Source of the DNA: Chiridota heheva
Lineage: Eukaryota; Echinodermata; Holothuroidea; Apodida; Chiridotidae
Length of the DNA stretch: 64,000 nucleotides
Assembly: GCA_020152595.1 (NCBI GenBank)
Contig: JAIGNY010000696.1
Coordinates: 1,103,501 to 1,167,500 of the forward strand
Direction of reading: 5' to 3'
A program made the translations under genes and the position numbers. A model generated the notes under the pieces. That model did no database searches. It had not been told where the DNA came from and saw nothing but the letters and a program-made list of their open reading frames with translations. Position 1 is the first letter of the stretch; every line of letters starts with the position of its first letter. This document shows positions 1,172 to 37,000 of the stretch, one piece after another.

Positions 1172-1944
1172 ACACTAACTCCCGACCTACCTTCATCCTG
1201 CCACAGGCTCTCTCACCTGTATTGACCTGTCTATCTGTTCCCTAACCTCCTCCCCTGATTTTAGTTGGAGAGTCACTGCTGACCTCTGTGGTAGTGATCA
1301 TTACCCTCTTCTTATACACTCCAATCTTCAAATCCCCACTGAGCACACCCCCAATTGGAACCTCGACAAGGCTGACTGGTCCCTTTTTGAAACCCTCTGT
1401 GACTCACACCTCTCCCCATCTTCTCGAGGATGAGGATCCCATGTCTAACTTCAGTAATATCCTTATCAACATCGCCACCTGCTCAATTCCCAAAACCTCC
1501 AAACCCCTAAATCATCCCCAACCCCTGGTTCTCAGATGACTGCAAAACCGCCATCAAGAACAGGAAAAGAGCCCTCAGGAACTTTAAAACTAACCCGACC
1601 ACCCATAACCTTAACCTCTTTCGCAGATCAGCCGTGCAAGGCCAGACGCACTATCAAGGACAGTAAAACCAACACTTGGAACAACTTTATCTCTTCTCTC
1701 ACCACCAACACCCCACTAAGAAGATTTGGAGAATGGTTAACAGCTTCCACGGCAGAGTAGGCAAATCTTCCATCTCCCATCTCTTGGAATGGAGACCTTC
1801 TCACCATAAAAAAGACATCGTTGACCACCTCGCCGCCTCTTTCAGCAACATCTCGCCCTCGACCAACTACTCCAATGCTTTCAAAATAAAAAAGCTTGCG
1901 ATGAAGCCCGAGAATCACTTTTCCTCTGACAACTCCAAAGCTAC

Positions 1945-3110: not shown

Positions 3111-3469
3111 GCCCTCAGGCTTTGTCTAGGAGCCTACAGGACCTCCCCAATCACTAGCCTTCATGTTGAAGCCAACTAACCCCTTTCTACTTAGATGTAA
3201 AAGCTTAGCCTCTCCTATGCTTTTAGAGTCCTCACCAACACCCAGAACCCTGTTTACAACCTCATTAGGTACCCCAATTTCTCCTCCCTCTTTGATAGGA
3301 CTAAAACCCTATCGCCCCCTTCAGCTTACGCATTAAATCAGACCTCTTTGAACTTGGCATCAACCCCGCCACTCGGCACCTATTCCTGGCCCACTTTTCC
3401 GCCTTGGGCCACCCCCTTCCTTCTGTCCACCTAGACCTCTCCACTTATAACAAAACTCAAACTCACCCT

Positions 3470-4210
3470 AATCTCTTCATCAATCTCACAACCAAATCAA
3501 AGACCAACTCTCAAATTACACCTCCATCTATACTGATGGCTCCAAGGAAGGCAACAAGACAGCTGCTGCTGCCATCATCCAAGACATCACCCTCAGTAGC
3601 AGACTTCCTGACCACTCATCCATCTTTTCAGCCGAGGCTAAGGCCATTCTCCTCGCCCTCAACTTTATTGAGTACTCTCCTTTTAGTCACTTTGCCATTT
3701 TCTCTGACTCAAAGGCTGTTCTTACTTCATTACTCAATCTTAAATGGGATAACCTCACCTGCCACCTCCTCCTCCGGAAACTCTTTTCTCCCACCCTCTG
3801 CAGGAAAAGTGTTCTTTTCTTCTGGATACCCAGCCATGTTGGCATCCCTGGCAATGACAGGGCTGATACAGCCGCTAAGCTTGCCCTTAACCTCCTCCCT
3901 TCCCCTTTTCCCAAAACCCTCTCTGACATCAAACCGCTTATCGCTTCTCTTGTTCGGGACCGCTGGCAAACCTTATGGAACTTCCAAATTGATAACAAAC
4001 TCCATGTTATCCAGCCCACAATCCCGATCAAATCCACCATCAACAACCTTTCTCGTATCGACAACGCTCATATTACCCGTCTTAGAATTGGTCACACCCA
4101 CCTCACTCACTCCCACCTCCTTATTGGTTCCCCCCAACCCCTCTGTAACAATTGCCACTGCATCCTCACAATCCATCACGTTCTCCTTGCTTGCCCCTGT
4201 ACAACCTTCC
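3470..4210 (+). pseudogene. RNase H domain and C-terminal Cys/His motif of element A
   Basis: YTDGSKEGN near 3530 carries the first catalytic aspartate, SAEAKAILLAL the glutamate, FSDSKAVL the second aspartate and WIPSHVGIPGNDRAD the histidine and last aspartate, a complete set of RNase HI motifs though frame-broken. Downstream CNNCHCILTIHHVLLACP (about 4147-4200) is the C-x2-C...H...C motif usual at the end of such ORF2 proteins. Confidence 0.85.
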
Positions 4211-4534
4211 CAGAGCTTCTCTCGCTCCCCACAACTCAATTGCTGAGTTCTTCCAAAAAAATCCTCCAGATAAAATTGTCTCCTTCCTTCAGCATGCATC
4301 CTCTACAACCATATTTAATTCTCCTCTTCCACCCTCTCTACTTTGTTTTTAGTTTTACCCATGCACCTCCTCTCTCGATCACAGCTTTCTGGCTTTTGTT
4401 CTTGAATTTCTCTCATTCTTCCCCTGGTCTCTTTCCTTACTACCTCTAAAATGATCTGACCTCTCAGGCACAATTTGACCTTCGTTGTCGTGGTGCCGTT
4501 AAGACCTCATCAAACAAACATCAATAGTGTGGTG

Positions 4535-11100: not shown

Positions 11101-14100
11101 GCACACCCAAATTATTAGATCTTTATTACATGATCATTTTGTTACTATGATAACAAAGGAAAAAGACACTAAAAATTCACATAGGAATCTCCAGGAAAAG
11201 TCATGAATATTTAGCTATATTAATTTTGATTTTTGATAGATTCGGCATATCAGCAGGAATAATGTAAGCTACATTTTTTTGGTGTGGTGTTCAGTTCTGA
11301 GAATTTACATGCTCCAATGATACAGCAATTACTGCCAAATGCATGAATTCACAAATGTTTAAAGGATTAGTTCATCGGTCAAGCACGTTTATCTCATATG
11401 AAAGAGGTTTTCACGAGAAACAAAATGGTGAAGAAAACATTTAAAAATCTTATTCTGTTAAGGAGATATTTTAGATTAAAGTTATGTATCGTTGTGGAAA
11501 AACCAATTGAAATTAGACTAGTTGTGACATGACTAGTTGTGACATGACTAGTTGTGACATGACTAGTTGTGACATGACTAGTTGTGACATGACTAGTTGT
11601 GACATGACATACTCAGATTCCTTAAAATCATTGTGTAGTTTATTTTATATTTTCCTGCGATTTTACCATTGGATATATCAGGAAAGTAATAAAGCGGAAT
11701 CTAGTAATGGTAATTGTAATGTATCACAAAAATAATTCAAATGGTAAAAGGTTGAGCCAATTTTCTAATGCATTACCAATTGTTTAGCAAGTGAGGATTA
11801 GGGGATGCCAACCTTCCATAATAGACTTACTACACCAGTCATTTCTACGCAGACAGAACTCTAGACTTGAATATCTTAAATTAACAGAATAAGAAAGTAT
11901 TTTCTTCACCATTTTGTTTCTATTAAAGTATTCTTTTATGTAAGATAAACTTGCTTGACCACTGAACTTATCCTTCAAAGGAAACTTATTTGAGTATAGT
12001 TTTCTTTCCAATCATAACTTATTGGTTGTCATTAATATTCTCGAGAGATCAGATTTTTTAATAGTCATATTCATAAACCAAATTTTAAAGGAAAGCTTTA
12101 TGTCCATTGCGTATTGTTCAGAAAAATTTAAAGGAACAAACTACAAAGTTTTTTTTACAAAACTATTTGGGAATTAATTCCTCTTCATATGTTTCACATT
12201 TTTTTGAGTATTTTTGCTTTATCAGATGGTCATTTTTGGATCAATTTGAATGGAAAATGATATTTCATAGATTTTTTGCCATTTTAATAGTAATTTTTGG
12301 GAGTAAATGCTTCTATTTGCCAATAGCCAATTATTGGTATATTCTTTTGATAGTCCATGTACTCAAATGAAGTAAACTGTAATCCAGTGAAAATTACTAG
12401 AATACTTTTTATTATTAATAATGATAATAATATTGAATTCACAGCATTTATATGCGCTAATCACCAAAGTACCATATGGCTTACAACAATATATCGTCCA
12501 CACACACACCAAAACCGAACTCATGTCCCCTAGGTCTATGCTGGGGTGACGCAATTCTCCTGGTTTAATTCAATTCTGGTGTAACCACAAGAAAGCCACC
12601 AAGCACATGAATTTTTTACCCTCCTCCAAATGTTGAACGCCAGACGGGGAAGCAGCTGGTGCCATTTTTAAAGTTAGTATGATTTAACCCAGGATCAAAT
12701 CTGAATTACTACATATATTTCGCGATAGTAATTTTTTATTTCGATACCAATCGCAGATCTGAATTGCTGCAATCATTGGACGCTTCAGATGAACTCTTGG
12801 GTCAACAATCCACCAATGAGGAAAAACTACGAACCAAAGCTGCTCAACTCTCAGAGCAAGTTCTTCAGTTGCAAGAGGAGTTGAACTTGGAAAAAGAATC
12901 TGCTCTAATCTTGAAAGAAAAACTCCAAGAGTAAGATGACAAACTTTGTTCTTTCTGTTTTGTGAAATTTGACTACTGTGTATGGTGTAATGTTGTCACC
13001 TCTCGTTTACCTTGGTAAATGCAACATGGTTGTGTATCATATTGTGTGTAAAGTTTAAACGGTCAATGACATCATAACGAAATGATGCCTTGGAACTATT
13101 TTTTTATACGGTCATACTCATCAAAATAGTCATTTCTCTTTTCTTTCAGAGTAACTGGTTGGTAATCAATAGTTTCAGGTACCTGGGTCCTAAATTGTTA
13201 TACTTTTTACATGCCTTGTTCATTAAGGTTCAAAAGAACAGAGAGAGAATCGGGCATTTGTGCTATATTTTTTACATGCCTTGTTCATTGAGGTTCAAAA
13301 GAACAGAGAAAGAATCGGGCATCTGTGCTATACTTTTTAATCGTTTTTAGTATCTTTCATTTCCATTACTTTGGGCGTGTACAGGGTAAATAATGGCAAT
13401 GCTAAGGTCATGCTGACAAACCAAATGTAATGAATGTATGGATGAGATCAGATAGACAAACACCCCAAGAAAAGTGTTGGATATATTCTTTTATACGATC
13501 GTACTCATCAAAAGAGTCATTTCTCGTTTCTTTTGGAGTAACTGGTTGGTAATCAAAAGAGTCATTTCATTGAGGTTCGAAAGAATCGAGAGAGAATCGA
13601 GAGAGAATCGGGCATCTGTGCTATACTTTTTAATCGTTTTTAGTATCTTCTATTTCCATTACTTTGGGCGTGTACAGGGTAAAAGATGGCAATGCTAAGG
13701 TCATGCTGACAAACCAAATGTAATCAAGAAAAGTGTTGGATATGCCTTGTTCATTTCTCGTTTCTTTTGGAGTAGCTGGTTGATATTCAATATTTTCAGG
13801 TACCAGGGTCCTAAGTTTGTATGCTTGTTACAGGCCTTGTTCACTGAGGATCAAAAAATTTATCCTAGAAAAGAGAGAACAAACAATTCATGCAAATGTT
13901 CTATACTAGACTGATTTTTGGTGAGCATGCGAAGCATAATGCAAACCTATGTAATTATTCAACAAGTCATTTGCATATAAGTTATTATATGAACTGACAC
14001 TTTTATACATAGTATGCTCAATCAGGGACTGATAACTAAAATGAGACTTCTTATGGATCCTGTGGGATGTCATGTGGGACATGGAGTGGGATGTCATGTG

Positions 14101-17100
14101 GGACATGGGGTGGGATGCCATGCGGAACATGGTGGAATGCCATGTAGGATGTATGGTGGAATGCCATGCAGGACATAGGGTGGAATGCCATGGGATGGAT
14201 GTCATGTGGGACATGGGATGTCATATGGGACATGGGGTAGGATGTCATGTGGTACATGGGGTGGAATGCCATGAGTAACACAGAGTGTGACATAGGTAAG
14301 GATGCCATGTGTGACATAGGGTAGGAGGCTATGTGGGACATAGGGTAGGAGGCTATGTGGGACATAGGGAAGGAGGCCATGTGGACATGGGATGTGATGC
14401 AATGTGGGACATAAAGTAGGATGTCATTGGGACATTGAGAGGGATACCATGTGGAACATGGTGGGACATAAGGTGGAATGCCATGTGGGACATCAGGTGG
14501 GAAGCCACTGATGCGGGACATATGGATGGGATGCCATTGGGGACATTGGGAGAGATGCCATGTGGGACACAAGAAGTGATGCCATGTGGGACATGTGGAG
14601 GGATCTCATGTGGTACATATGGTTGGATTAATGTGGGACATACATGTAGGATGGGATCCATGTGGGACATAGGGTGGGATGCCATGTGGGTCATAAGGTG
14701 GGATGTCATGTGGGACATATGGTGGAATGCTATGTGGGACATATGGTGGAATGCCATGTGAGACATACTGTATGGTAGAATGCCATGTTGGGGATATGGT
14801 GGAGTGCCATGTTGGACAAGGCATGGGATGGGATGTCATGTGGGACATGGGGTGGGATGTCATTTGGGACATGGGATGTCATTTGGGACATGGGATGGGA
14901 TCCATGTTGGACATAGGGTGGGATGCCATGTGGGTCATAGGATTGGATGCCATGTGGGACATATGGTGGAATGCCATGTGGGACAAGGGATAGGATGGGA
15001 TGTCATGTGGGACATGGGGTGGGATGCCACATGGGGGAGAGATATGGTGGAATGCCATGTGGGACAAGGGATGGACATCATGTAGACATAGGGGTGGGAT
15101 GCCACGTGGGTGATATAGTGGAATGCCATGTGGGACAAGGAATGGGATGTCATGTGGGACATGGAGTTGAATGCCATGTGGGACATGGGATGCCATGAAG
15201 CATTAAATGACCTTTTCATTCATTTGATGTGTATACCATAAACTGGTATTGCTATGGTCATAGTTAGGAGTGAATGTATGGAATGCATGGATGAAATCAG
15301 ATATACAAAATACCAAAAAACATCCAAGGCACATGAAGACAAGAATTTGCAGTGTTTCTTCATTTTTATGTTTTATTTTTCCAACAGGAAATAGCAGTGG
15401 AATGTTTTGCTAATAGATCTTTAGCATGGAACTTATTAATAAGTACAGAATGTTTGGTCAAAATGACAGTCATATTTACTAGTAATGAATGCAGAAACTG
15501 GCATTTTCAATTTGATGTTGTTAACTTAAGATGAGGTTGTTAACCCAAGATGAGGTTGTTAACCCAAGATGAGGTTGTTAACCCAAGATGAGGTTGTTAA
15601 CCCAAGATGGGAGGTTGTTAACCCAGGATGAGGTTGTTAACCCAAGATGAGGTTGTTAATCCGGAAAGATCATTAACTCAAGAAACAAATAATACAATGC
15701 ATTGTGATTTAACGGCAGTTCCTGATAGGTTAAAGTTAATTTACACTCTTATATTTGTTTATTTCTAAAGAAATGAAAGAGTGACAACAACCAGTCTACA
15801 CGAACTCACCATCAAATATGAAGAGCTGGAGGAAGCCCATGCATCGGTGAAGTCTGATTATCATGTGACCATCCAGGGACTGGACGCTCAGGTACACACT
15901 TACCAGGAAAGCACCAAAGAGCTCAACACAGAGGTAGATGACCTCAGGCACAGGAGTAAGGAACTCATGGAAACAGTCTATGCAAAAGAGGTATACAGCA
16001 GAGATGAATGATTTTGACATTTGTCATTTATTTAGCATAGGAGAAAGACAAACAGTGGATTATTTTCAAGAAATCTTTTAGTTTAAGTCCTCTTAAAATG
16101 CACAATTTTTTTGTCATTTGTATATAAGTGGAGACATTTTTGTCATTTGTATATTGGACTTTTCTTGTACTGTGACATATGCAATGAAGAAAGTGATGAA
16201 GATCACTCTTAATTAATAAATACAATTAAAAAATGATAAAAATTACTATAAAAAATAATAATAAAATAGATAAAGATTGATAAATAGAATTGAACTGTAA
16301 CTGAAAATCAAAATTATCATCAATTACAAAACAGTTTTAAGATATCAAAGGAACAATAATTTAATAGTTGTTGCATTTAATTTCTGTTAGTTTTCACCCT
16401 TATCATAATTTTTGGCTGTCATATTCTAAATATTCATTAGAATATAATTTGACAAATTTGTATTTATGATTGTACAAAAATGAAAAAAACAGTTTTAGAT
16501 ATTCAATGATTTAGTTAGTTTTACATTTAAAACCCTTATTATAATTTTTTGCTGTTATCATCACTATGATCATTCTAATTTGCACACTTTTATCACATTA
16601 AGTAAAATATTCATCTGAATTATCAGCATCATGTTTTTTTTCAAATTTCTTTTCATAAGTCATCAAGTTGGTTATGAACAGAATATTAGTTAATTTATTA
16701 AGAATTTTTTCCCTTGGGCCCTCCAACCCAACACCACCGATTTTCTCAAAATCAGGGGTAATCCACACCTTCAAACTCGAGAGCCTCTTCACAGTTCAAT
16801 TGCTAGCAATCAGCTATTGTTACACCATACACAACACAGGGGTAATCTACACCTTCCAACCTGAGAGCCACTTCACAGTTCAATTGCTAGCAACCAGCTA
16901 TGTTACACAGTACACAATAGGTCATTCATCTGAGGCTGAAGCCACAAACTTCCTTTGCAGTGAAATGAAACAGATTAGTCCTTGGCTGACCCTAAATATA
17001 AATATGCTTTATATACCTGGAGGAAATTGAATCATAAATGATTGATGGACCATTGAATGATTGATGGACCATGAATGATGGATGGACCATTGAATGATGG

Positions 17101-20100
17101 ATGGACCATTGAATGATGGATGGACCATTGAATGATTGATGGACCATTGAATGGTTGATGGACCATTGAATGGTTGATGGACCATTGAATGATGGATGGA
17201 CCATTGAATGATTGATGTACCATTGAATGATTGATGGACCATTGAATGGTTGATGGACCATTAAATGTTTGATGGACCATTAATTGATGGATGGAGCATT
17301 GAATGATTGATGGACCATTGAATGGTTGATGGACCATTGAATGGTTGATGGACCATTGAATGATTGATGGACCATGAATGATTGATGGACCATTGAATGA
17401 TTGATGGACCATTGAATGGTTGATGGACCATTGAATGATTGATGGACCATTGAATGATTGATGGACCATTGAATGTTTGGTGGACCATTGAATGATTGAT
17501 GGACCATTGAATGATTGATGGACCATTGAATGATTGATGGACCATGAATGATTGATGGACCATTGAATGATGGATGGACCATTGAATGATGGATGGACCA
17601 TTGAATGATTGATGGACCATTGAATGGTTGATGGACCATGAATGATTGATGGACCATGAATGATTGATGGACCATGAATGATTGACGGATTATTGAATGA
17701 TTGATGGACCATTGAATGATTGATGGACCATTGAATGATTGATGGACCATTGAATGATTGATGGACCATTGATTGATTGATGGACCATTGAATGTTTGAT
17801 GGACCATTGAATGATTGATGGACCATTGAATGATTGATGGAATTAATGGTTGATTCCTTCCAAAAGAAAAATTTGTTCATCTTTAAAAAACAGTTTTTTT
17901 TTTTTTTGCTTTTATTCAAACATGATGAACTTCCATAAGCTATTAAAAACTGGTCTTCCAACCCTTTTTTATGAAACCACAATTTGAAATGAACACCCTC
18001 AAATCACTAGTTTTAGTTGCAAATCATCAGCATGACTAAGCCTCATTCAGCACAATCTGTTGTTTATCATCCTCACTTTGCTTGAGTGCACTTTTACACA
18101 AAATAAGCTGATAAGTGGCCAATTCACATAAACACTGTGGCTTTGTGTATGGCCTGGCACTAGGAGCAGTTGTGGTTTTGTGTTAATGAGAAAAGAATAT
18201 TGTATATCAGGTTGGAAATATAATCTCCTGATCAAAATGTAGAAAACAGTCGGGACTTGTGGGGTAAAAGCTACAGCATTATAAGTTTGTAATGAACTGA
18301 TTGAGAGCTCATGCTGTGGACGCCCTTAAAAAGATATTCATTAGCTGTATTCCTACCAACTTATTAAAATTTGAACTCAATATTTGAAGGGAAGTTTTGT
18401 CTGGAATACCATGTTTTAGTGTGTGAAAGGTACACAACATGCTTAATTTGGCTGATGATTTGTTTTCACTCACCCAAGTTTCGTAGCTGGGTATGCTACT
18501 GCAAATTACCAATATTCTACAGTTGATTTGGTCAATTATGATACACAGTATCTCTGGTCAATCATGATACACAGTATCTCTGGTCAATCATGATACACAG
18601 TATCTCTGGTCAATCATGATACACAGTATCTCTGGTCAATCATGATACACAGTATCTCTGGTCAATCATGATACACAGTATCTCTGGTCAATCATGATAT
18701 CTCTGGTCAATCATGATACACAGTATCTCTGGTCAATCATGATACACAGTATCTCTGGTCAATCATGATACACAGTATCTCTGGTCAATCATGATACACA
18801 GTATCTCTGGTCAATCATGATACACAGTATCTCTGGTCAATCATGATACACAGTATCTCTGGTCAATCATGATACACAGTATCTCTGGTCAATCATGATA
18901 CACAGTATCTCTGGTCAATCATGATACACAGTATCTCTGTCTTTGAAGTGGCGATCGTCCCAAGAAAGTTGCCTGACATGGTACCAGTAAATGTGATAAA
19001 TTGTAGTGATGTCACTGACGTCACCTTTGTGGTGGTTATTAATTGGCTTGTCAGTATTTGTGTAAATACTTTGACCAACCAAAAGTTGATTTGTATTCTA
19101 TATTTATATCCACATTAACACGGTAGCTGAACTTAAACATGGGTTAATTTTCTCAATTTGTCGCCAGGATTTAATCTCTTCCTTGAAGAAGTCTAAGGAG
19201 AATGAGATGAGAGCAAGAAAGGATGCAGAGACAGACTTGAAAGAATTGAAAGGAGAGGTAAGAACACGTCATAGTTTATCGATTTGTTTGAAAGCACATG
19301 AACAGGTGGAGGAAAGAACTAATGTTGATAGCAAAAACATTAAGTTAAAATAGATACTAAACATTTCAAAAGTATTTGATTTTTTAATATGCAAATTAAT
19401 ATGCAAATTTAATATGCAAATTTTAATAACAATTGGAATTGCCAGACTTTTTTCTATTATCTTATTTAAATCTATTGTGTTTCACACCTCTGCCACCAGA
19501 TTTTGCTAAGGGAAGTAGCTGCTTTAGGCAACAGGTTTATTAGCATGAATCTTAATGCCCAAATCACGTAGTGACCCTCCAGATTAGCACATGAAAACAT
19601 GCATATTGAAAATCGTGTGTCACGCGATAAAGAAAAAGTCGATGGCATAACAACACGTGTCCACAAAATTTTGCGACCAGATCTAGTAGCAAAATTTTTT
19701 TCGATATCAAAACTATATTTATTTAATCTAAAAAATTGATAAAACAGTACTTGTCTACTAGTGTTCCCAACTTGTCTACTAGTGTTCCGCAAAGAATAAA
19801 ATATCGAAAGTCTTCCATCAAATCATGAAATTTTCTCTGTAAAAAACAGAAAATGGGCAATAAATGATGCGTGTCGTTCAAATACGCGCACGATGTACAA
19901 CGTGATGCCTGCTTCCTTCTTTGGGCATTTGCTCCTGACTTTACCCGATAACGCTTGCGCATTTAAGCGTATATGCTAGCACGACACAGCATTCGGATTT
20001 CACTCAAGCATGCACAAAGTGCACACTGTTACCTAACTACCATTCCATTTCTTAAGCCGTGAACAATTGAATAGCAAAGTTAGTGTGGAAAAGGATTTCA

Positions 20101-23100
20101 TTTCCTGCAAACTGTAATTAATAAGGTAATTGTTTTCTCAGATTCCAGTTGCTATGTTATAAACATTGGTTTTGAAACAAAGGTGTATAAATCTTTGCAT
20201 AGAAGTAAATGGTGTCGGTGCAGTTTCTACACATAGAAATGCATAATGAGCCATTTTCACTGAAGGTTTATTGGATCTTATCCGTACCCAATCAAATTCA
20301 AGTGGAAAAGTTGTCACTATTTTCATCTTCAAGAAAACAATATAAAGAATCACATCAAGATTTCCAGCTGTCTTGTCTTCCTCTTCATACATCACTAATT
20401 GTGTACGTACTGAAAATTGTTACCCTTTCTAAAAATACTATTTTCACTGCTGTTAACCCATTTGGGTTCAATTTTTGTTCAGTCAATAACAAAAAGATTA
20501 CATTTAGAAACACAAGCAAGTATTTTGAGTTAAACGTTTTTTTGAAAGATTGAAAATGATATAATCTGTGAACCCAAGTTATATTTGAGGATAGCTAACA
20601 CATAGTAAACTTTACTTAAAGGATTAGTTAAGTGGTCAAGCATGTCCATCTTATATGAAAGAGGACTTCAAAAGAAACAAAATAGTGAAGAAAGCATTCA
20701 AAAATCATATTCCGTTAAGGAGATATTTAAGTTTAAAGTTTGGTATCATTGTATAGAAATGACTGAAATCAGACAAGTTGTGATGTCATAATTTCAGATT
20801 CCTCAAAGTCTTGATATATTCTATCATATTTTGTCCTATGATTTTGTGACTTAAAAACCATGGGATATGTCAAAAAAGCAGTAAAAAAATTTAAATAGTG
20901 CAAAATGAAATAAACTTTCTTTAAAATACATGGACATGCTTGACCACTGAACTAATCCTTTAAATCAAGCAAAGAAAAAACTTCTTGTAAGCAACTGTCA
21001 ACTGAAGCTGCCATGAAAAGCATCTGAGTTACAGGGGCAGTCAAGAAACCCCATCGTTACAGGTCCTGTACTGTGGCTGTCCATGATAGCTGGCATTAAA
21101 AACTGCTTTAGTCAGATGTTAACGCTATTTTATACAATTATCATTGTATCATAATATCTTTACTTGCTTACAGTTCTTTTTGCTTGAAGAGCAGCATGGA
21201 GACTTACAGTATAATCTGCAAAGTGGTAAAGAAAGAGAGAAAGAGTTAAGAGAAAAGTTAGAAGTCCTCGGTTTAATGACTACGTCACTTGAAGAAAATG
21301 TTGATCGACTGAGGGAAGAAAAGAACGAGGCGAATCAAACAGCGAATGAAAGACTTGAAGTTATCAAGCAGTTTGAAGGCGAAGTTTCAAGGCTGAGTGA
21401 TGAATTACAAAGGTTTGTTAAAGCACTGCTGACATCTAAACACTTTGTACTGTTTTTGTAATGTTAAAGTCTGAGCAGGGTGTTCTTTAGATATTAAAAA
21501 TGGTGTATTCTTGCCTATGAGGTTAGTGAATGAAGATGCAGTATTTTATTGTACATTTTCCCATCCACACATGCATTTTTAATTAATAGCAAACATAAAA
21601 TTTCTTTGTCTGAAGTGAAATTTGTACATTGGAGGCTCACCTCAAAACAACTTGAAGCATACATTATTGACAAGGATAGCTGTTGGAATATTTGAGTCTG
21701 GCATGACAGAAAAAGAAGTTTAATTTTGCTTGTCTTGGGCAGAGTTTGATAAACCTTGCATTACTCCTCGATCTCTGCCATGCAATTGTGTAGCATCCGT
21801 TGACTTAAAGAGCTTCAGTATACTTGTCAGTGTTTGTGATCCAGGACAGCTGGTGAAGTTGAATGGTGAGATACTGATAAGAATCCATTTTCTGTTTAGA
21901 GAGTTTTTGGTAAAGGCTTTATATTTTTTTAAAGAACTTGTTTCAGAAATCTTAAACAGCAGGAAATAACATAAGAGTCATTGTCACTCTCTTTGGGACA
22001 TTGGTTAATTCTGTTTAAGATTTTTGGTGAGCATGCGAACCTATGTAACGGCGATTTTGTCCGTCCGTCCGGTTGGCCGTCCACAGTTTTTCCTGAGAAT
22101 TTGTCAGAAATATTAGTTTTTCGAGAAGTTTCCTTAGAGTTGCTCAGAAAAAGTTAGTTTCTTCAGATATCTATATGGAAGGTTAGAATTTCCTCACAAA
22201 ATGTTCAAGTTTTTCAGAGATACTTAAGACAAGTTGAAGACTAGTTTCCTTAAAAAGTCTACAAAACATTTGATATTTCCTTAGAATATACCTATAAAAT
22301 AATATAATTTTACAATATTCTTCAGAGATCCTCAAGCGTCTCTCTCGTGGCACTGGAGGTTTAAAATTCTTTAAAATATTTGGGCACCAACGGTTGTATC
22401 AGGCATGATTATTAAACTCCCCCTTAATTATTGTGGTCATTTGCATAAAATTGCTACAGTATATGAACTGACCAGACTCTTTTATTTAGTATTCTCAGTC
22501 AGGGAGTGTGATAGGATGTGACTGCATATGGACATAGGGAGGGATGCCATGTGGGACATAGATGGGGTCCACGCGGGACATCCATTTGATATAATATATA
22601 CCATGTAGTATACACCAAGGGCTATATCAGGCATAATTATTTGACCACCCTTTTTTTTTCAAGTCATTTGCGTTGTAAGTTATTATATGAACTGACACTT
22701 TCATACACAGTATGCTCAATCAATGACTGATAGATAAGATGAGACTTCTTATGGAGCTTATGGGATGTCATGTGGGACATGGGGTGGGATGCCATGTGGG
22801 ACATGGGGTGGGATGCCATGTGGGACATGGGGTGTGATGCCATGAGTAACACAGTGTGACATAGGTTGGGATGCCATGTGTGGCATAGGGTAGGAGGCTA
22901 TGTGGTACATGGGATGTGATACCATGTGGGGCATAAAGTAGGATGTTATTGGGACAATGGGAGGGATACCATGTGGAACATATTGTGGGATCCAATGTGG
23001 GGCATGAGGTAGGAAGCCGCTGATGTGGGACATATGGTGGGATGCCATGGGGGACATTATTAGAGATGCCACGTGGGACTCAGGGAGGGATGCCATGTGG

Positions 23101-25022
23101 GACATTGGGAGGGATGTCATATGGTACATATGGTTGGTTTAATGTGGGACATACATGTAGGATGGGATCCATGTGGGACATAGGGTGGGATGCCATGTGG
23201 GTCATAGGGTGGGATGCCGTTTGGGACATATCGTGGAATGCCATGTGGGACATATGGTGGAATGCCATGTGAGACATACTGTATGGTGGAATGCCATGTG
23301 GGAGATATGGTGGAGTGCCATGTGGGACAAGCATGGGATGGGATGTCATGTGAGACATGAGGTAGGATGTCATTTGGCACATGGGATAGGTGATCCATTT
23401 GGGATATATGATGGGATACTATGTGGGTCATGGGATGTCATGTGGGACATAGGGTGGGATGCCATGTAGGACATGGAATGCCATGTGGGATATGGAATGC
23501 CATGTGGGACATGGAATGCCATGTGGGAGATGGAATGCCATGTGGGACTTAAGTGTGAGATGCAATTTTTATAATAGGCCAGGTCATATGATATGGGTGT
23601 CAATTTGCATGGTCATGCGAACCATGACTGTATTTACCATTCTTTTTCACTTTTAGCATCTCCTTTTAATTTTTCTTTATGTAATTTCAACTATGAAAGA
23701 TGTACATTAACATGGATCATGGACATACAGCTTTCCCAGTATCCGTGTCCCGAAGGATAATGGAAGTTGAGCTCTCCTGCAGACTCGGCTAGTACCTGGT
23801 CCTCCATTATTCCTCTGTAAAGCTATGTCATGCATTAACCTTTAATTGTGGATGATTTGGATAAAATATTTATTTCTGGTGTTTCCAGTTGATAAATATG
23901 ACTAAATCGACCCTGAACTTTTTCCTGAAAGGATTAGCGAGACATGTCTATCTTAAATGGTAGAGCACAAACAGAATTGGGGAAAGAACTTCTTATCTAT
24001 GTTATTCTGGTCCAGAAAACATCAAGTTTTAAAGAGGTCACAATTGAATTTCTTAGAAAGAAAGAACTGGTGTAGAAAGAACTGGTGTAAAAAGAACTGG
24101 TGTAGAAAGAATTGGTGTAGAAAGAACTGGTGTAGTAACAACTTGTGTAGAAAGAACTGGTGTAGAAAGAACTGGTGTAGAAAGAACTGGTGTAGAAAGA
24201 ACTGGTGTAGAAAGAACTGGTGTAGAAAGAACTGGTGTAGAAAGAACTGGTGTAGAAAGAACTGGTGTAGAAAGAACTGGTGTAGAAAGAACTGGTGTAG
24301 AAAGAACTGGTGTAGAAAGAACTTGTGTAGAAAGAACTGGTGTAAGTAAGAACTGTGTAGAAAGAACTGGTGTAGAAAGAACTGGTGTAGAAAGAACTGG
24401 TGTAGAAAGAACTGGTGTAGAAAGAACTGGTGTAGAAAGAACTGGTGTAGTAAGAACTGGTGTAGAAAGAACTGGTGTAGAAAGAACTGGTGTAGAAAGA
24501 ACTTGTGTAGAAAGAACTTGTGTAGAAAGAACTGGTGTAGAAAGAATTGGTGTAGAAAGAACTGGTGTAGAAAGAACTGGTGTAGAAAGAACTGGTGTAG
24601 AAAGAATTGGTGTAGAAAGAACTGGTGTAGAAAGAACTTGTGTAGAAAGAACTGGTGTAGAAAGAACTGGTGTAGAAAGAACTGGTGTAGAAAGAACTGG
24701 TGTAGAAAGAACTGGTGTAGAACGAACTGGTGTAGAAAGAACTGGTGTTGAAAGAACTGGTGTTGAAAGAACTGGTGTAGAATGCTCTCTAAAAAGGAGT
24801 GTTGTCACCACTCACTATTATCAATTATTCATGTATTTTATTGGAAATTATTTAAACTTTTTTGCTAATTGGAAGTACTGCCCATTATACTCTTTTAGAT
24901 CTACTTTCTCCCCTTTCATCTCTATCTCATACCTCTTTAAGAAAAATTGTTCCGATGACATCATTACCTTCTTCCGTAACAGCAACTTTTCCCACTTGAT
25001 TTAATACTCACTCATCTCCACC

Positions 25023-25077
<55 letters not shown>

Positions 25078-28000
25078 CATTATTAATATTATTATTATGA
25101 TTATTATTATTATGATTATTATTATCATTATTCACTTTTTACCCTTACTAATCCTCTCTCCTTCTCTCTATCCTTTCTACTCTTTTATCAGATTTACATT
25201 TTGCTTCTTCCCCTCTTTACTATCACACCATGAATTTCTAATATCCTCTTGGCCCATTTGACTCGGACTGTTGCAGTGCGTTTAAACCTCAACAAACAAA
25301 CGAAACAGAAATAATTTTCAAATTTCACGGTAAATTACAGTGAGATTCATCCCAGACTCACATGATTATAACAAAGTCACATAATTACAACAAATTATTT
25401 CTATACAATACACAGAGACTTTTGAGGATGTGATGTCACTCTTAGTCTGAATTCCATCATTTCTACTACAAATCTGATAGAACTCTACTTCTTTTTTCTT
25501 CAGTGCAATGAAACACTCAGAGGAGACAGCTGTCGAATTGAATTTAATGCGAGCACAAGTCAGAAATTTGGAAGATGTCAATCAGAATCTTGTGGTGGAG
25601 ATTGAAGAATTATCAAAGTAAGTTATGTGAAGAAAGCAAAATAAACTTTCTCAATTCATGAGTGAAATTGTGTGGAAGAAATAGAAAAGGAAGATATTTC
25701 AAAGAAATTCTATAAGGTTTAAGTGTGTGAGTTAATGGTGAAGATGCCTGGGAAGAACATTAATTCCTAGATATATGCAAATTTATCCAAACCTGTTTTG
25801 ATGACAAGAAAATTATCAGAATATTGCATCTGTGTTGGGACACATACATACATACCTAGGGCTTTGTTGTGAGTTTCTGACCTGTCAACTGATATGTGAT
25901 TTATATCACTATGTTTCAAATACACAAATCAGATCAAGAAAACAAATTGATTTTAACATAGAAATTAAGTGTGTTGGTACACTTTATAGTAGCTTATTGT
26001 TTTACACTTGTTGTAGGGAAGGTAAGGCTGATTTAAAGATTGGTGATGTATTATCCATTTGGAACATTTTATTTTGATATAAATAGTATAATTTAGGATT
26101 CTCATTTCCAACTTCTGGAACATTTTATTTCTAATTAAAGCACTTGATTACTAAATGATGTACCAGAATACTAATTGATTTATCAATGTAATGTTATTTT
26201 GTTTGTAGGGTCAATGCTGGTCTACAGTACTAATTGATTTATCAATGTAATGTTATTTTGTTTGTAGGGTCAATGCTGGTCTACAGTACTAATTGATTTA
26301 TCAATGTAATGTTATTTTGTTTGTAGGGTCAATGCTGGTCTACAGTACTAATTGATTTATCAATGTAATGTTATTTTGTTTGTAGGGCCAATGCTGGTCT
26401 ACAGTACTAATTGATTTATCAATGTAATGTTATTTTGTTTGTAGGGTCAATGCTGGTCTACAGTACTAATTGATTTATCAATGTAATGTTATTTTGTTTG
26501 TAGGGTCAATGCTGGTCTACAGTACTAATTGATTTATCAATGTAATGTTATTTTGTTTGTAGGGTCAATGCTGGTCTACAGTACTAATTGATTTATCAAT
26601 GTAATGTTATTTTGTTTGTAGGGTCAATGCTGGTCTACAGTACTAATTGATTTATCAATGTAATGTTATTTTGTTTGTAGGGTCAATGCTGGTCTACAGT
26701 ACTAATTGATTTATCAATGTAATGTTATTTTGTTTGTAGGGTCAATGCTGGTCTACAGTACTAATTGATTTATCAATGTAATGTTATTTTGTTTGTAGGG
26801 TCAATGCTGGTCTACAGTACTAATTGATTTATCAATGTAATGTTATTTTGTTTGTAGGGTCAATGCTGGTCTACAGTACTAATTGATTTATCAATGTAAT
26901 GTTATTTTGTTTGTAGGGTCAATGCTGGTCTACAGTACTAATTGATTTATCAATGTAATGTTATTTTGTTTGTAGGGTCAATGCTGGTCTACAGAAAACC
27001 GAGAAAGAGCATGAAGCAATCAAACAACAATTATTAGATGAAAGAAACAATCTGGAGACAAAGATTGCAGAGCTGGAAGAAAACAATACCAGAATGACCC
27101 AGGAGTATGGAAGACGTCTAGTCGAGACACAAAAGAAGGTCTCGTTGAAAGCAGTCGAGATGCAGAAATACAAGGAAGAGAAAGAGGAAGAAATGAAAGG
27201 TCTTTCAAGGAAGTTACAAGAAGGGGAGAAAGCGATGGAGGAGCGTGCAACTGAATTTGAGGAACTGAAGAAAAGGAAAGAAATGGAGGTAGATGAAGTG
27301 AGAGGGATGCTTGGAGTCGTTCAGAGGCAAGTCACAGAGAAGGAGATGGAATTGAAGAATGTAAGACAGAGTATGACGCACAGAGTGGAAGGTTTGGAGA
27401 AGGACTTGCAAGTAGCAAGAGATGACTTGGAAGAAAAGAAGAGAGAGTATGAGAACTTGGAGGAAGAATTGCAGCTCATGAAAGAGGAAAACAATTATGA
27501 AATTGCAGCTCTGACCAGTGCCGTGCAGACGCTGTCCTGCCAAGTGACCGATCTAGCTGACTCCTTGAGTGAAAAAGAAGAAACGATCCGAGTTATGACC
27601 GATGATATTCAGATGTTGGAGGATGCCAAAAATGAAGAAATTGAAAGGATGTCTCAAAGTCACAGTGATCTGCTGATCAGTACGGAACAACTGAAGAGCA
27701 TTTTAAGTGATAAAGAGGAACAGTTCCGAAGATTAGTGACTGATTTCAATCTGATGGAGGACAGTAAGGAGAAGGAGATTGAGAGCTTGAAGCAGAATCA
27801 TGACAATCTGTTGAAGAGCTTGAATGAAACGAGAGACATCTTAAACAGGAAAGAGCAAGAGTCAGCTCTGCAAGCAGCAAATTTTCAACTTAAAGAAGAT
27901 GAGCGGGAGAAAGAGGTAGAAAATATGTCACAGAATATCGAGGAGTTGTCCTCCAAAGTTGAAGAACTTAAAAGAGTGGTTAGCGAGAGTGAGGAAAGGT

Positions 28001-31000
28001 TAACGATGCAGGCTGCAGATTTCCAGCTACAAGAAGATGCTAAGGAGAGGGAGATTGAAACTCTTTCAAACTGTGAGCAAAGTTTGTCTAAACAGGTGAA
28101 AGAACTTTCTGAAATGATTACGAAGAAGGAGGAGGAATTTACCTTGCAATCAGCCGATTTCCAACTTTCTGAAAATGCAAAAGATGAAGAATTAGAAAGA
28201 GCAACGCAATCTCAACAATTCTTGTTGGAGCAGGTGGAGGAGTTGACTGAGATATTGAAAGAGAGTGAAGAGAGGATTCAATTGTTAGCGGAAAACTGTC
28301 AACAGTTGCAGGTTGAGAAAGACAGAGATGCTACAAGACTGAAGACGAACCAGAAGGAAGCCATAGCCCTGAAGGACATGCTGCAGAAATTAGAAGAAGA
28401 GAATGAACAAAGGAGGACCAAGGAAGTAGCATCAATGGAGGCAAAGACACGAGAGATTGAAGCTCTGACGAAGGAACTTGAAGGAGCAGAGAGGGAACTA
28501 AGAAGGCAGGATGATGAGATGCAGAAATTGCAAGATGCTAAGAAGATGGAGATTGAACGGATGAGGATTAACCTGGAGGAGGAAGCTGCGAAGCTGAGGA
28601 CTCAAGTTGAAGAACTGTCAGAGCATCTCAGGTATGTACTGCATGATTCTGGTTTTATTCTGAAGTTGCTGTTTCTCTAGATTCTAACTTAAAGGTTCAG
28701 AGGTCAGATATGTTCATGCTATATGAAGGAGGACATAAGAAGAATATAATGGTGTAAAAAGTGTTCAAAAATCTTGATTCATTAAGATGCTTAAGTTTGG
28801 TATCTTTTGTGTAGAAATGACTGAAATCAGACTAGTTGTGATGTCACAGCCTCAGATTCCTCAGTCTTTATGTATTCTATTATTTTTGTCCTGCGCTTTT
28901 GTGGCATAAAAACGATTGGATATGTCAGGAAAGTAGTAAAACAGAATCTAGTAAGGGTAATTATAAATCACCACCTGAAGAAAATTTGAGGAAAATAATT
29001 CAAATAGTGAAAAAAGTAAGTAAATTATCTTTAAAATACATTAACAATTGTTAAGAATGTTAGGATGATGGCGCCAACCTTCCATAGTATACTTATTACA
29101 TGTAACAGAATAAGACTTTTGAATGCCTTCTTCACCTTTCCTCTTTCATATAGGATCAACTTGCTTGGTTACTAAGTCAGTCCTTAAAACAGACCATTGT
29201 AAGGTTACTCTGAGTTACCTACATTACCACATGCAGAATTTTTGAAGAAAAAAATATTTTCTCAATTAAGAAAACAAGTAATCTGAATGTGAAAACATAA
29301 TATTTGTAAAGAAAATGAGGGTATGATGTCACCCTTCTACAGTACACTCTATATGCCACTCTTATTCATACATATTTTTGAGAAATTAAAGACTATATAT
29401 CTCCTGAACCACAAGAAGATTTAACAGTAGATTCTTCAATCTTCTGTTCGTTTTTTTGCCCTCTATGAAACAAGATGACGTGTCCGACTACTAAACAAAT
29501 CCTTTAAGCATCAACTATTGTGAGGATGTGATGTCACATATGTGATGTCACAACTAGTCTTGACACCAGCCATTTCTACACAACTTTGTAATAAAAACAT
29601 AATCTTGACATATTATGTCCTTCACTGTTTTGTCGCTATTTTATGTATGCTTCACACCAACTTATCCTTTAATTCAGAGCTAAGCACTGACAATCTGGTC
29701 ATCTTCCACAGTAATTTTGATTTGTCTAGTAATGTTATTTTGTTGTTCATATTTATAAATACAATTTATTTGTAGTATTGACCAGTGCATTAAATCCGGG
29801 ATTATTTGGTTTATTTCAATTTTACAACCATGATTTTCTTAATAAAGTGTAAAAGATATATGTAAATTTTTCTCGTTTTTGATTTATTTTTAGTTGTTTT
29901 GTATGCATTTTAAAACAATCTTAACACAGAAATGTTATAAATAGATTAATGTTTTGACATCATGTTTCTACACACATTTAATGCACTGGTAGTTTCATTG
30001 TTTTTGTTTTGTTTTCTTTCTATAAAGTTCTCATGTATGTTCTGGTATGGAAGAACTTGAACAGGAGAAAGATAGGTGAGTATTCTAATATTAGCACTCA
30101 TGCTTTTCACAAATGTGTGACTAACAATTAAAAAAAAAGGTTTACATAAGGATATAGGAAATTCTGCCCTTTCATACATCACAAGAGGAACAAAAAATTG
30201 CTTATTTTGGCCTGAAAATTTAGAAGGCTCTAAAATGATGAATTTTCAACCGAATTGGATGAAATGTTTTGATTTTAATTTTGATTTTAATTTTAAAACT
30301 ATTTTAATAATTTTTCATGGATTTTAAAGCAATTTAGCAGAAGTTGCTGCTACACTTCCACACACCTTTAAGTAATTTACTAAAAAGTGTAATAATATAT
30401 ACAGATGAATACAATAACAATCATGTTCAAACAAAGAAACAAGCATTAGTTGTTTTGTATTTGAATTATGTGGAATTTCTTCATGATGCATTGAAATGTA
30501 CAGCTTGATGTTGATGGTTCAAAACGTGAAGTAATCAAATGATCAATCACTCATACAATCATAAATTCAAAGAATTATTTTGCATTGACTGCAGAGGGAC
30601 TTCATCACGTGACTCTAACTCAACTGGACTCCATTTTGCAGGGCAGTAGCGTTGTTGCATTTCACGCATCTTCACACAGCTCAGTCACATCACACGTACA
30701 ACAAACATACTACATGCTAACCTACCAGTACCAGTTCAGCGAATTTTACTGATTGCATTTTTTTTGCTCGTTTCCGATTTTTATTAATATTTTCCTTAAG
30801 TAAGTTATATTTTCACCGGGCATACGAAAAGTAGTTACTCAGACAAAGCTTAACGTTACATACCTGATATAAAGTGCTCACTGCAAATCCTAGTGTGTAA
30901 GGTAGTATCGTAGGTTGAAAGCTGTTGCATTGTACAGCAGAAACCCACTTCGAACGTCGATCAGGACCAGATGGAAATCGAGAAAATGTCTTTTTATTCC

Positions 31001-34000
31001 CTCGCACACATCTATTAGTGCAACAGCACAGTAAGATTCAAGCATAATTATCTTACAAAAATAATTTTATATAACAACATGCAAACGTATGTAAGTCTAA
31101 TTGAGTGTACAGCAGATGGCAGTGGATTTGACCGACAAAATAGCAATGTAAACAAAGTCGCATGACCTCCTGACGTCAGCTGAAACACTTATTAGGCTGT
31201 AGCGCGCCCAAAATAATATGGATGCAAGAAATGAGTCAAACAAGCAATATCTAAAAGGGTCAAAAAACAAATTTAGTTTCCTGTATGAATAAAAAGTGCA
31301 CTGTGTGTGGTTGGCCCAAGGTTAGTTGTTCATTAATGGATGAAATTATATTTTCCAAGAAAACTTTGTGTAGATTTTGCATGGGGAGAGTGTGAGTTGC
31401 TTCTCTTCCAGATACAGCTTTGACGACAGTCAATTAGTGAAATTTCAGCTTTAGCTGGAGTGATACTGAGGTTTGATCTTCAAAAACTGATGGTTTTCAA
31501 AATGCTTTTGCATGATCTGAATTATATTGGTATCACCTGTTCATAGAGCTATCCTTGAATAAGTGGTAAAACTTTGTTCTGAACAACTTTGGAAGCAATT
31601 TATAAACACAAAATTCTCTCTGAATGAATAGAGTAAAAATTCTCTGGAAATGTATTACAGTGACACACAATAATACTCATATGAAAATGACACAATGATA
31701 ACCAACATAATGGAAATACAGTATCAAAAGTAGCTTACAATTTTTGGACATTTGTCAGACTTACACGTGACACACATACATGTGACAAAGGAGACCTAAG
31801 TTTGTCAGGATATTCAACTTGCAAAAATGGATAAAAAAGCCAAATCCTTGTAAGACCTGGCAAGACTCCTGGAATCACGAAACCAGTAACAAACTTCACA
31901 CCATTAAACCTAAAGTCGGGACCAACACCCCTGCACAGTCGCAATCGTACGGAAGACATCGTTGTCACCCGCATCCGCCTCAGTCACTCCTCTCTCACCC
32001 ACTCCCATCTCCTTTCCAGCTCTCCTGCCCCTCTCTGCAACACCAAACTCTCCATCAAGCATATCCTTTTAACCTGTCCCCTATACCTAAACTCCAGGTC
32101 TCTTCTCTCCTCACCCACCTCAATCTCAGATCTATCAAAAAACAATCCTTCCTCCAACATTACCAACTTCCTCTGCAACAACAACCTATTCCACCATATC
32201 TAATCTTCCTTTTCCGTCCACACCTAACTTACACACCCCTTTCTTTTCACCTTAATTTTTTTCTCCCAAATTCACCCTATTTTCCCCCCTTTTCTCCCTC
32301 TCAATCCTCCATCTCCTCTCTGCCCTAACTCTTACACCTTAATTTATTAACACTCTCTTGGCACACTTGACACTTGGCACACTCTCGCGGTGTCGTTAAA
32401 CATCAACAAACCAAATCCTTGTTCAATGGTATTTTGTGTGTGTGTGTGTGTGTATGATGTCTATACATATGCTTATTTTTAGATAATTTTTTTTTTGGGG
32501 GGGCGAAGAGGAAAAGGCTTTGAAGGAGATTTATGGTTCAATCAGCTAAAAAAATACAAAGGAAGATGAAAGAAGGAGAATAAATATTTGAAAGAAAGTG
32601 ATTTATATTTTGTTTAGAATACTATTCTTACTTTTTCTTCAGCTGGAAAGCTAAATTTGAGGAGCTGCTAGCCAAAGTAGAGCCATTTCAGGTGAGCATT
32701 TTTGTGTGTACATGATCATTTTGAAAAACAAGATCTTTGACAAATAGATTTTTGACAAATAGATCTTTGGCAAATAGATTTTTGACAAATAGATCTTTGG
32801 CAAATGGATTTTTGACAAATAGATCTTGACAAAAAATCAATAACTTTAATATCTTGCAAATTAATGTCAACCTTATCACTTATAGTTCCCTTAAACGATT
32901 ATGTTTCCAACTTTTGTTAAATGTGCGATTTGATATTTTAAGGATGCTTGTTAAAGGAATAAACTGTTTAGTTGTGATTTAAGTCTGGTGCCTCTTCCAA
33001 GCAAACCAAGAAACCTCTTACAACCAAGAAGGGGACAGAGGGACAAGTCACTCATATTTTAAGGAGGATAGTCTAAAAAGAGATCTATACATAGAACACC
33101 TTGGATATGGTAAACACTGTGATTGGGCAAACAAATATTTTCAGTATTCTAACATAAGTTTGGTAGTCTGACATTAATATTCACAAAATATATATTTTTT
33201 TTTCTTGTATATTAATTTGTTATCTCTAGAATAAACAAAAGAATTACAATATGTTAATGAGAAATAATTGCACCAAAAATTGACAGAATAAACTGATATA
33301 TAGTAAGAGTAAACAAATTTCGCAGAATGTTTTTTCCTCTAATCTTAAGCTTTTATATCACGGAAGTGGAAAATATTTCCTATCATTTCTGATATTCGTT
33401 TTGTTACCACATCTTTATATCATGAAATCATCCGACAAAAACCTGCAAACTCTGGAAATAGTGGCTTGAAATTAAAGAAATGCTGTGAAAATATGATATT
33501 AATATTGAAGCAAACTGGCATTCGATTATGCACATGATCATGGCAACTTCCCAGTGTAGCCACTTGAAAATTATCTCTGTGACTCTCCCTCCCAATGGTG
33601 ATGAATTGCCACCTTTGCTTCTGTCTCTACCCCTCCCAATGGTGATAGATTGCCACCTTTGCCTCTGTCTGTACCCCTCCCAATGGTGATGAATTGCCAC
33701 CTTCGCCTGTCTCTCTCCCTCCCAATGGCGATAAATTGCCACCTTTGCCTCTGTCTCTACCCCTCCCAATGGTGATGAATTGCCACCTTTGCTTCTGTCT
33801 CTCCCCTCCCAATGGTGATAAATTGCCACCTTTGCCTCTGTCTCTACCCCTCCCAATGGTGATGAATTGCCACCTTTGCTTCTGTCTCTCCTCCCAATGG
33901 TGATAAATTGCCACCTTTGCCTCTGTCTCTCCCCTCCCAATGGTGATGAATTGCCACCTTTGCTTCTGAGACTCATGAGTCTTGCCTTCTTATACTTCAG

Positions 34001-37000
34001 TGTGTAGACTTCCTTCAATGATAGTTAACCAAGTATCAGTTATGGTGGTTGCATTTAGAGGCACTCAGCTATGAGCAGATTATCAGGACAAATTTTACTT
34101 TATTGGTTAAAAGTTCCTTATGTTTTCTTCTCATAAAGTTTAATTGCAAAGAGTTTCAAAATTAACTTTTTTCTTTTACTGATCAAAGGAGCAACTTGAT
34201 CAATTTGAAGCTCAGAAGAGGTTCCTTTTGGACCAGAACAATGCCACCAAGAATGACCTGACACAGTTGAGTCGAGACTACGCCAAACTACTGGGACATC
34301 AGAACAACAAGCAGAAAATACACCACGTCCTCAAACTGAAGGAAGATAACATCAAGCTCAAAGAGGTGAGTCACACAGGCAGTTGTCTTCTCAGAGCATT
34401 AAAGGAATATTTTCATGAATATGTTATTTTCATATGCATGATAGAGGATTATTAAAGGGAACATATAGTCTGGGTTTTCTTTATGTAATATGATAGAGAT
34501 AATAATTATAAGTCATCTAAAGAAATTTTGCATCATACAAAATATTTTAGCATATATTTTCTAATTTATTAAAACATAAATTCTGTCAATATAAGCTTAC
34601 ATGGGAGCGGCCATTTTGTACACAAGCTCCTAAAAATGATGTCATACACCCAGTGCAGATTAGAATATCAATCAATCAATGATTGAAATTTATATAGCGC
34701 AAACCAAACATTTGCACTAAGGTGCTTTGAAATACAGACAGTCACCTCTGGTAAGTTTGTTTGAATAGGTCGGTCTTTGGGTGTTTTCCAAAAGTGGTAA
34801 TAGATGTAGCATTCTTGATAATGGGTGGTAATTCCTTCCAAAGTTTTGGGCCATAGCAAGAAAAAGATCTTGTCTGCGAATATAAGATGATGAGTTCTGG
34901 GGACATGAAGTAAAGTAGAAGATGTTGAGGATCTGAGGTGTCTGGGACTGTCGGACTGGAAGTAAATCTGAGATGTAGGTGGGAGCGAAGTTGTGCAGAG
35001 CTTTGAAGATCATGATGAGCACTTTAAAATCAATGCATTGTTTAACAGGGAGCCAGTGGAGGTTTACCAATTAAAATGAAATAGGGTCAAATTTTTGATG
35101 TTTTGTGATGATTTGGGCAGCTGACCGCTGAATATTTTGAAGCCATGCAATAAGGAACTTGTTTAATATCAAAAGTGAATTACAATAGTCTAATCTGGAG
35201 GTTACAAGAGTGTGAATATTAGTTGCATCCAAAGTAAGCATCTTTCTCACACTACTTATATTTATTAGGTGGTAATTGTCAGATTTGATAATATGGGTCA
35301 CATGAGCAGACATTGACATGCCAGTGTGAAACATCACACCAAGATTACGAACAGGGCTAAATATGATGGGCACATCAGTGCTAGCAATAGTCATTTAGGC
35401 CAATTTAATTTTGTAAGTTGCGCTCTGAACCCTATCACCATCACTTCAGTTTTATCGGCATTGAGTTTAAGAAAGTTTTGTGACATCCAGTCCTGAATTC
35501 TATGTACACAGTTCTCTAATTTGGTTACTGCTAGGTTGACACCTTCCATAGTTGTTGGACAAACAGATACATAAATCTGTGTGTCATCAGAGTACATACA
35601 GATCAAGATTATACTGACGGATCAGCTATCCAAGTGGTAGAATGTATGGCAAATAGCAGTGGTCCGAGCTTTGATCCTTGTGGTACTCCAAAATGCAATG
35701 GTTGTGGAAATGAAAATTTGCCATCAATGAGAACCCGCGGAGATCTTCCCGAGAGATAGGATCTAAACCAGGAGAGTGGGATACCATATATACCCAAGAT
35801 ATCTACTAATTGCTGTAATAGTACTTTGTGATCGATAGTTTCTAAAGCACCACTCTGGTCTAAGAGTGTAAGAATGGTGACACCTTGCCTCTTCATGGTC
35901 CACAGTAGATCATTATGCACCTTGATTAAAAGCACTTTCTGCTATGAAATATGAATGTCTATTTTAAATTTTCTAAATTTTAAGAAATAATTTTTCTTTT
36001 GCATGGGTCTATGAATTTATATTTGTATGTGATATCAAAGATTCAAGCCCTTAAAAGTGTCCATGTTACAATTTCAAACTTGGATATCTTGAGAATGGAA
36101 TAAGACTTTATGATGGGGTTTTTGGTAGTGGTTTATTTTTTAATTCTCTATCATATATCAAGCTAGAATACTAGACTTGATGTCTCCTTTATGGAATCAA
36201 ATTAGTGAGAAATTCATGTTGGTTTTTGTTCTATCTTTGCTTTTTATTATCTTATATGAAGCTTTATTTTCATTTTTTTCTCTCCTTTCTACTCCTTCTT
36301 CCAAACATCTGTCCTAACTCTTGCACCTTGAATTTTTAACACCTTTTTAGCACATTTTGACTCTTGACTGTTGCAGTACCATTAAAGATCAACAAACCAA
36401 ACCGTTAAGGAGTTATTGCATTTCAAAGATTTTACCAGTGTGTTGAAGAGTGACCATGTAAAGTGTGATGTCATAGTTGCAGATCTAAGACCTCTTTGTA
36501 AATTATTTGGAATATCTTTTGTTTCATTATTCAATGGGGTATAACATGCACTTTGCAAGAACATGCTTTGTCCATCTGCTCATGTATCTTTCACTCATAA
36601 ATAAGATATCAACATGTTTCTTTTTCACACAATTTGTTCTACAATTTTCTCTTATTATATAAATACAAATTCACAGGAATATTCCTTTAAATAGTGAATA
36701 GACAGTCATAATGTATTAAACAAAAGGTTAAGAAACAAAAAGTACAACTGTAAAGGATCCACTCCAATATCTTGTTCTGTTTGTTTGTTTTTAACACCCT
36801 CTTTGCACATTTGACTCTGTTGCGGTGCCATCAGCAAACCAAACCAAACCAAATCTGATTGTGAGATATCAGGCTTTAAAGATGTTATAGGTTCTATTGA
36901 AAATTATTTGTGTAGAATGTTTATTTTCTAAAGTGCCATCATACACTCACTTAATTTGTAATTGCTTGAATTATTTTAAAAATTTGTGTAATTATTTTTC

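Follow-up and report, generated by a model that had tools for sequence, protein, structure and literature searches.

The 64,000-nucleotide stretch of Chiridota heheva DNA that we analysed (the window) carries on its plus strand the predicted exons of a gene in which a tandem array lies across an intron-exon border. The features that concern this gene and its array are as follows.

10845-10936, 12757-12930, 15771-15990, 19168-19257 and 21174-21412, plus strand: predicted upstream exons, forming a phase-consistent chain
25504-25617, plus strand: phase-consistent HMMR exon upstream of the array, with acceptor 10.7 and donor 9.5 on a rough weight matrix
26169-26994, plus strand: tandem array, found by TRF and by script, whose 14 units of 59 bp lie across an intron/exon border in HMMR
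26169-26175, plus strand: candidate branch point TACTAAT of unit 1, recurring every 59 bp, with the branch A 34 nt before the exon start
26202-26208, plus strand: first acceptor TTTGTAG, for which the exon start would be 26209, followed by 12 more upstream acceptors at 59-bp steps
26969-26975, plus strand: last acceptor TTTGTAG, alone among the 14 in preserving the HMMR frame, giving the 1005-codon ORF
26976-28631, plus strand: main HMMR exon of 1656 nt (divisible by three), purine-rich, with a long open frame
30028-30075, plus strand: predicted exon next after the main exon, to which a join from 25617 is in frame
32643-32691, 34189-34365 and 38379-38537, plus strand: exons encoding HMMR_C (Pfam PF15908) and the stop codon

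The exon chain was found on the plus strand with a rough script scoring splice sites and codon bias. Joined together, the eleven exons of this phase-consistent predicted model form a single open frame of 1005 codons that ends in a stop. Translation of the last three exons joined (the first of them taken from 32651) matches HMMR_C in Pfam at 1.8e-38 over profile positions 32-151 of 157, and the ORF 34183-34455 alone matches the same domain at 6.8e-21. Judged by this domain of its predicted protein, the gene carrying the array is HMMR, the name that had already been proposed for it in the preliminary description of this DNA. The main exon by itself gave no Pfam match above cutoff, and we assign it to HMMR because its strand and phase agree. 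HMMR_N was not matched in Pfam at E 0.01 within the first 343 residues of the model, which lacks an N-terminal start. It should be borne in mind that the matrices for splice sites and branch points carry values chosen by hand and untrained, and that codon bias was learned either from the main exon or from exons that the model already included. The scores of the exons therefore serve only for guidance, and what supports the gene model is its unbroken frame together with HMMR_C. Since the main exon is open, as is the 1005-codon model throughout, selection has probably acted on the full-length HMMR mRNA, at least until recently. In the translation of the main exon, at about 27560-28260, several diverged repeats of approximately 45 residues are visible by eye.

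A protein search with an 877-residue part of the model scored the 7998 candidates with most words in common and returned none at E 0.001, and querying PDB sequences with the main exon gave no match. Rfam, scanned with the window at gathering thresholds, yielded 0 matches, as did viral contigs searched for the exact 40-base core of the unit. All of these collections are ill-suited to an animal gene, and the absence of matches therefore says little. Elsewhere in the window, 425-4449 and 6350-8686 are two related retrotransposon-like stretches, the first with endonuclease and RNase H domains in Pfam and the second resembling it by eye in the ORF list. On the minus strand, 49225-49695 is a MeaB-type GTPase exon (PF03308, 1.7e-22) that probably belongs to an MMAA gene; the minus-strand ORF 58065-58502, which we presume from inspection by eye may be the N-terminal part of MMAA, gave no Pfam match.

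The array at 26169-26994 is confirmed as genuine in this assembly. TRF (threshold 50) reports a period of 59, 14.0 copies, 99% matches and a score of 1645, while our script places all 14 units in exact 59-bp register and finds 13 of them identical, unit 4 being the sole variant with one T-to-C change at unit position 43. Thus the fourteen border units of the preliminary description are upheld; the span given there, 26168 to 26995, had the location right and was one base too wide on each side, the repeat stopping exactly at both ends of 26169-26994 with zero bases of extension either way. Within each unit, TACTAAT is followed by a T-rich stretch free of AG, then by TTTGTAG and lastly by 19 exonic bases with CTACAG at their end. 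The script located the 14 TTTGTAG acceptors at the positions previously claimed, offering exon starts at 26209 + 59n up to 26976. Stop codons are present in all three frames of the array itself. With its head-to-tail units of 59 bp in 14.0 copies, the array is a minisatellite (VNTR) in the sense of a repeat with units of about 10-100 bp in several copies.

The consequences of each splice choice can be read from the predicted model. The donor at the exon end 25617 is AAA/GTAAGT. Joined to acceptor 14 (26976), it gives K-V-N-A-G-L-Q across the junction and a frame open to the normal stop, and this is the only one of the 14 acceptors to keep the frame. Joined to any of acceptors 1-13, it leads in the predicted model to a stop at the 9th codon, counting the codon split by the junction (13 of 13), in agreement with the earlier statement that the upstream acceptors end the frame within about nine codons. 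In all 13 cases these stops lie 1964-2672 nt ahead of the last exon junction of the model. An mRNA is marked for NMD when its stop precedes the last exon junction by more than about 50-55 nt, a positional rule that applies to the predicted products of all 13 upstream acceptors, and NMD of these products is therefore to be expected. CTACAG at the unit end was considered as an alternative acceptor and rejected, as it leads to early stops in the three units tested (1, 7 and 14).

If the upstream acceptors are unproductive, what distinguishes them from the last? The preliminary description took the 14 acceptors to be equally strong. In sequence this holds, for the acceptors are near-identical; on the rough matrix the array acceptor scores 8.8, against 4.9-10.7 for nine other acceptors of the model (that at 32643 excluded). 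In downstream context, however, they are unequal. The first 60 nt after acceptors 1-13 contain 0 GAA and 47% purines, compared with 3 GAA and 63% purines after acceptor 14. Within 150 nt, acceptor 14 is followed by 9 GAA, acceptor 13 by 5, acceptor 12 by 2 and acceptors 1-11 by 0. Acceptors 12 and 13 are thus also near the purine-rich exon, and the advantage in context is not exclusive to acceptor 14. GAA-rich and purine-rich exonic sequence can act as a splicing enhancer, and the purine-rich main exon may act in this way on the last acceptor.

It had also been claimed that scanning would favour the first acceptor, a claim that we do not sustain. As the rule is set out in the relevant text of PMC1431707, scanning is a step from the chosen branch point to the first AG. 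Every unit of the array has its own candidate branch point, and between TACTAAT and its TAG there is no AG in any unit; scanning therefore does not favour unit 1. Directly before TACTAAT lies the CTACAG of the previous unit, in place of which unit 1 has an AG at 26165. The competition is accordingly among 14 branch points, each unit being self-contained. TACTAAT is a good candidate at 34 nt before the exon, although AATTGAT and GATTTAT score nearly as high in the last unit, which was the one scored. With two further candidates per unit scoring almost equally, TACTAAT is best regarded as a putative branch point.

We also considered RNA structure as the selector, and rejected it. Unpaired probabilities were nearly uniform over most units, and fold z-scores were weak, ranging from -1.49 to +0.38 for five pieces, with -0.86 for the whole array (20 shuffles). 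In two of three settings, unit 1 had the most open branch-point region (0.165 and 0.094), while in the third unit 5 exceeded it (0.063 against 0.043); most other units lay at 0.004-0.025. For the AG, unit 14 ranked highest in openness under two of the three settings (0.166 and 0.185), with unit 3 ahead of unit 14 in the third (0.149 against 0.133). The folding predictions thus provide no convincing signal that the upstream acceptors are hidden. Regarding timing, the first acceptor precedes the last by 767 nt, equivalent to 12-46 s at a transcription rate of 1-4 kb/min. With a lead of just 12-46 s, transcription order alone need not decide which acceptor is chosen.

To what extent does the position of the array call for a special cause? 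Arrays with a period of at least 10, at least 3 copies and a TRF score of at least 100 cover 12.3% of the window, and ten arrays make up 5420 bp of 10500-34500, or 22% of the gene region. Six array regions of at least 650 bp occur in the window (9693-10363, 14062-15190, 17037-17841, 22761-23548, 24059-24782 and 26169-26994), and 26169-26994 is the purest of these over its length, with 99% matches compared with at most 95% for the longest rows of the others in TRF. In the exon lists used, it is the only array to overlap an exon. When arrays were placed at random without overlap over 10500-34500, at least one of nine exons was touched in 98.7% of 20,000 draws, with a mean of 2.8 against the observed 1, and one or fewer exons were touched in 12% of draws; these figures are rough, the exon list being incomplete. 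A count of borders under independent placement over 10000-35000, equally rough for the same reason, gave a mean of 3.9 among the 18 borders, with one or more of them touched in 95.8%. Exon 32643-32691 was outside both counts, and no listed array overlaps it. The observed overlap is below the mean expectation, though not significantly so. In a gene so rich in minisatellites, contact with an exon is expected by chance, and hence the position of the array needs no special cause.

Two further sets of repeats in the window may be mentioned. The arrays at 14062-15190, 22761-23548 and 54964-55845 are related 24/48-bp arrays on GTGGGACAT...TGGGATGCCAT, the last being by eye the reverse complement, and together they are a dispersed minisatellite family. 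The array at 24059-24782, in the intron upstream of the 25504 exon, consists of 48 copies of a 15-bp unit and leaves several frames open on both strands.

Our interpretation is that the array is most likely a recently expanded minisatellite. A 59-bp piece comprising branch point, polypyrimidine tract, acceptor AG and the first 19 coding bases of the main exon would have been duplicated in tandem and then, like any ordinary minisatellite of this minisatellite-rich gene, have recently expanded to 14 copies. The high purity of the array fits recent growth, as had been suggested from the near-identity of its units, or homogenisation, and gives no date; variation in copy number among individuals is plausible. 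We consider it probable, with some reserve, that such a border minisatellite is spliced mostly at its last acceptor while an upstream minority goes to NMD. The donor at 25617 would for the most part be joined to 26976 and the other 13 units be removed with the intron, and the gene would tolerate the array because these spare units leave in this way. The last site would win through being the only one directly followed by the real GAA-rich and purine-rich exon, which may recruit splicing activators, each upstream site having merely 19 exonic bases before intron-like sequence resumes. The minority of transcripts taking an upstream acceptor would be degraded by NMD.

The most serious competitor, which we nevertheless judge unlikely, is that the upstream acceptors take a large share of splicing, such that the array acts as a dose-lowering element or a regulated unproductive-splicing element for HMMR. 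The 13 upstream acceptors match the last in sequence, and the position of their stops suits NMD. Ordered or equal choice would moreover give a low yield: by calculation, productive mRNA would amount to 5.5% if each site caught 20%, or 7.1% if all 14 were equal, and if sites are tried in order, 50% productive mRNA requires 94.8% skipping at each of the 13 upstream sites. However, the human CBS duplication discussed below shows that a duplicated border can be neutral, and an array position expected by chance is no sign of a selected device. The preliminary description had raised NMD control of this gene; the expectation that upstream products are NMD targets stands, but position alone, given the 98.7% chance of contact, is no argument for a control device.

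Alternatively, the array could cause the whole 1656-nt exon to be skipped, making an in-frame short HMMR the main product. The exon length is a multiple of three, and in the predicted model the join from 25617 to 30028 stays in frame to the normal stop and gives a product of 453 codons, so that a short HMMR isoform is possible; the preliminary description overlooked this product in stating that only the 3'-most choice gives protein, which is correct as far as the 14 acceptors are concerned. The donor at 25617, at 9.5 on the rough matrix, would also suit such a join. Nevertheless, the long exon is still open over 552 codons and the short exon at 30028 is predicted only, and we give skipping as the main outcome a slim chance. 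About as little credence attaches to the view that the copy number is an assembly artefact and that the real locus has one or few units. Near-identical units are indeed difficult for short reads, but the window contains no N, the variant unit 4 sits inside the array and the assembly resolves several further long arrays elsewhere in the window; assembly artefacts, furthermore, collapse arrays more often than they expand them. Finally, re-splicing, by which the junction AAAG/GTCAAT would serve as a new donor and the rest of the array be removed in rounds that each add one G (three rounds restoring the frame with one extra glycine), seems to us barely credible: the rebuilt donor scores 5.1, within the 4.1-11.0 of nine predicted donors in the gene on the rough matrix, and of 0-4 extra G tested 0 or 3 leave the frame open and 1, 2 or 4 do not, but GTCAAT has neither the purine normally present at +3 nor the G at +5, and two of three frames are unproductive.

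A more speculative proposal is that copy number acts as a rheostat. Each added unit would be a near-identical decoy acceptor, the productive HMMR fraction would fall predictably, for example as (1-p)^(n-1), and length alleles would set HMMR dose or shift expression to the in-frame short isoform between individuals. We regard this as improbable. Length alleles, if they exist, would constitute a natural dose series. Competition between duplicated splice sites is usually studied in two-site constructs, and fourteen near-identical acceptors in series in front of an intact frame offer a natural test of acceptor choice, in which the weights of position, head start and exon context could be read together at one locus. 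In the HMMR array, moreover, a minisatellite extends over a splice border and the reading frame shows no visible damage.

The closest known system is CBS 844ins68, in human cystathionine beta-synthase. In the section of PMC2630376 that deals with it, this is a 68-bp duplication of the intron 7/exon 8 junction that places two splice sites in series, of which the more distal is strongly favoured, the upstream piece of exon being removed and the mRNA being normal; a passage of PMC2427040 also cites the 844ins68 work. Although the same section of PMC2630376 speaks of a donor, an intron 7/exon 8 junction is concerned, and the cited Romano 2002 has 3' splice site in its title. As in CBS, a duplicated intron/exon junction puts acceptors in series in HMMR, and acceptor and exonic bases lie together in the tandem unit in 14 of 14 units. 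Gene, unit and organism differ, and there are two copies in CBS and fourteen in HMMR; furthermore, the site used was measured in CBS, whereas in HMMR the intact frame is what points to it.

PMC2630376 also lists a 31-bp VNTR in CBS, c.1444_1467+7(16_21), which is polymorphic in people, has alleles of 16 to 21 units and, by its coordinates, runs across an exon-intron border. Like the HMMR array it is a multi-unit repeat crossing such a border, but the sequence repeated there, judged by those coordinates, is an exon's 3' end with the donor side, whereas the HMMR array repeats branch point and acceptor. In human segmental duplications, the pertinent text of PMC2812944 describes variable internal tandem repeats at exon-intron boundaries with 27 intron modifications, the minisatellites averaging a 30-bp unit and 4 repeats, with units that may be kept or spliced out. 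The HMMR array resembles this class in being a minisatellite at an exon-intron boundary, covering the exon start 26976 of the phase-consistent predicted model. That class, as characterised there, produces novel introns via cryptic sites, while in HMMR a complete authentic acceptor has been multiplied. A further comparison is with closely spaced AGs, as treated in the corresponding part of PMC1431707, which follow a single branch point at spacings below about 12 nt; there too several AGs compete for one donor, but they share a branch point, whereas the HMMR AGs are 59 bp apart, each with its own candidate branch point. PMC7263670 proved unrelated, and among the matches listed from the open-licence literature we found no case in which a complete acceptor is described as present in tandem more than twice. 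The class of duplicated borders is thus already known, and what is new in HMMR is the scale, fourteen copies making it an extreme variant of that class.
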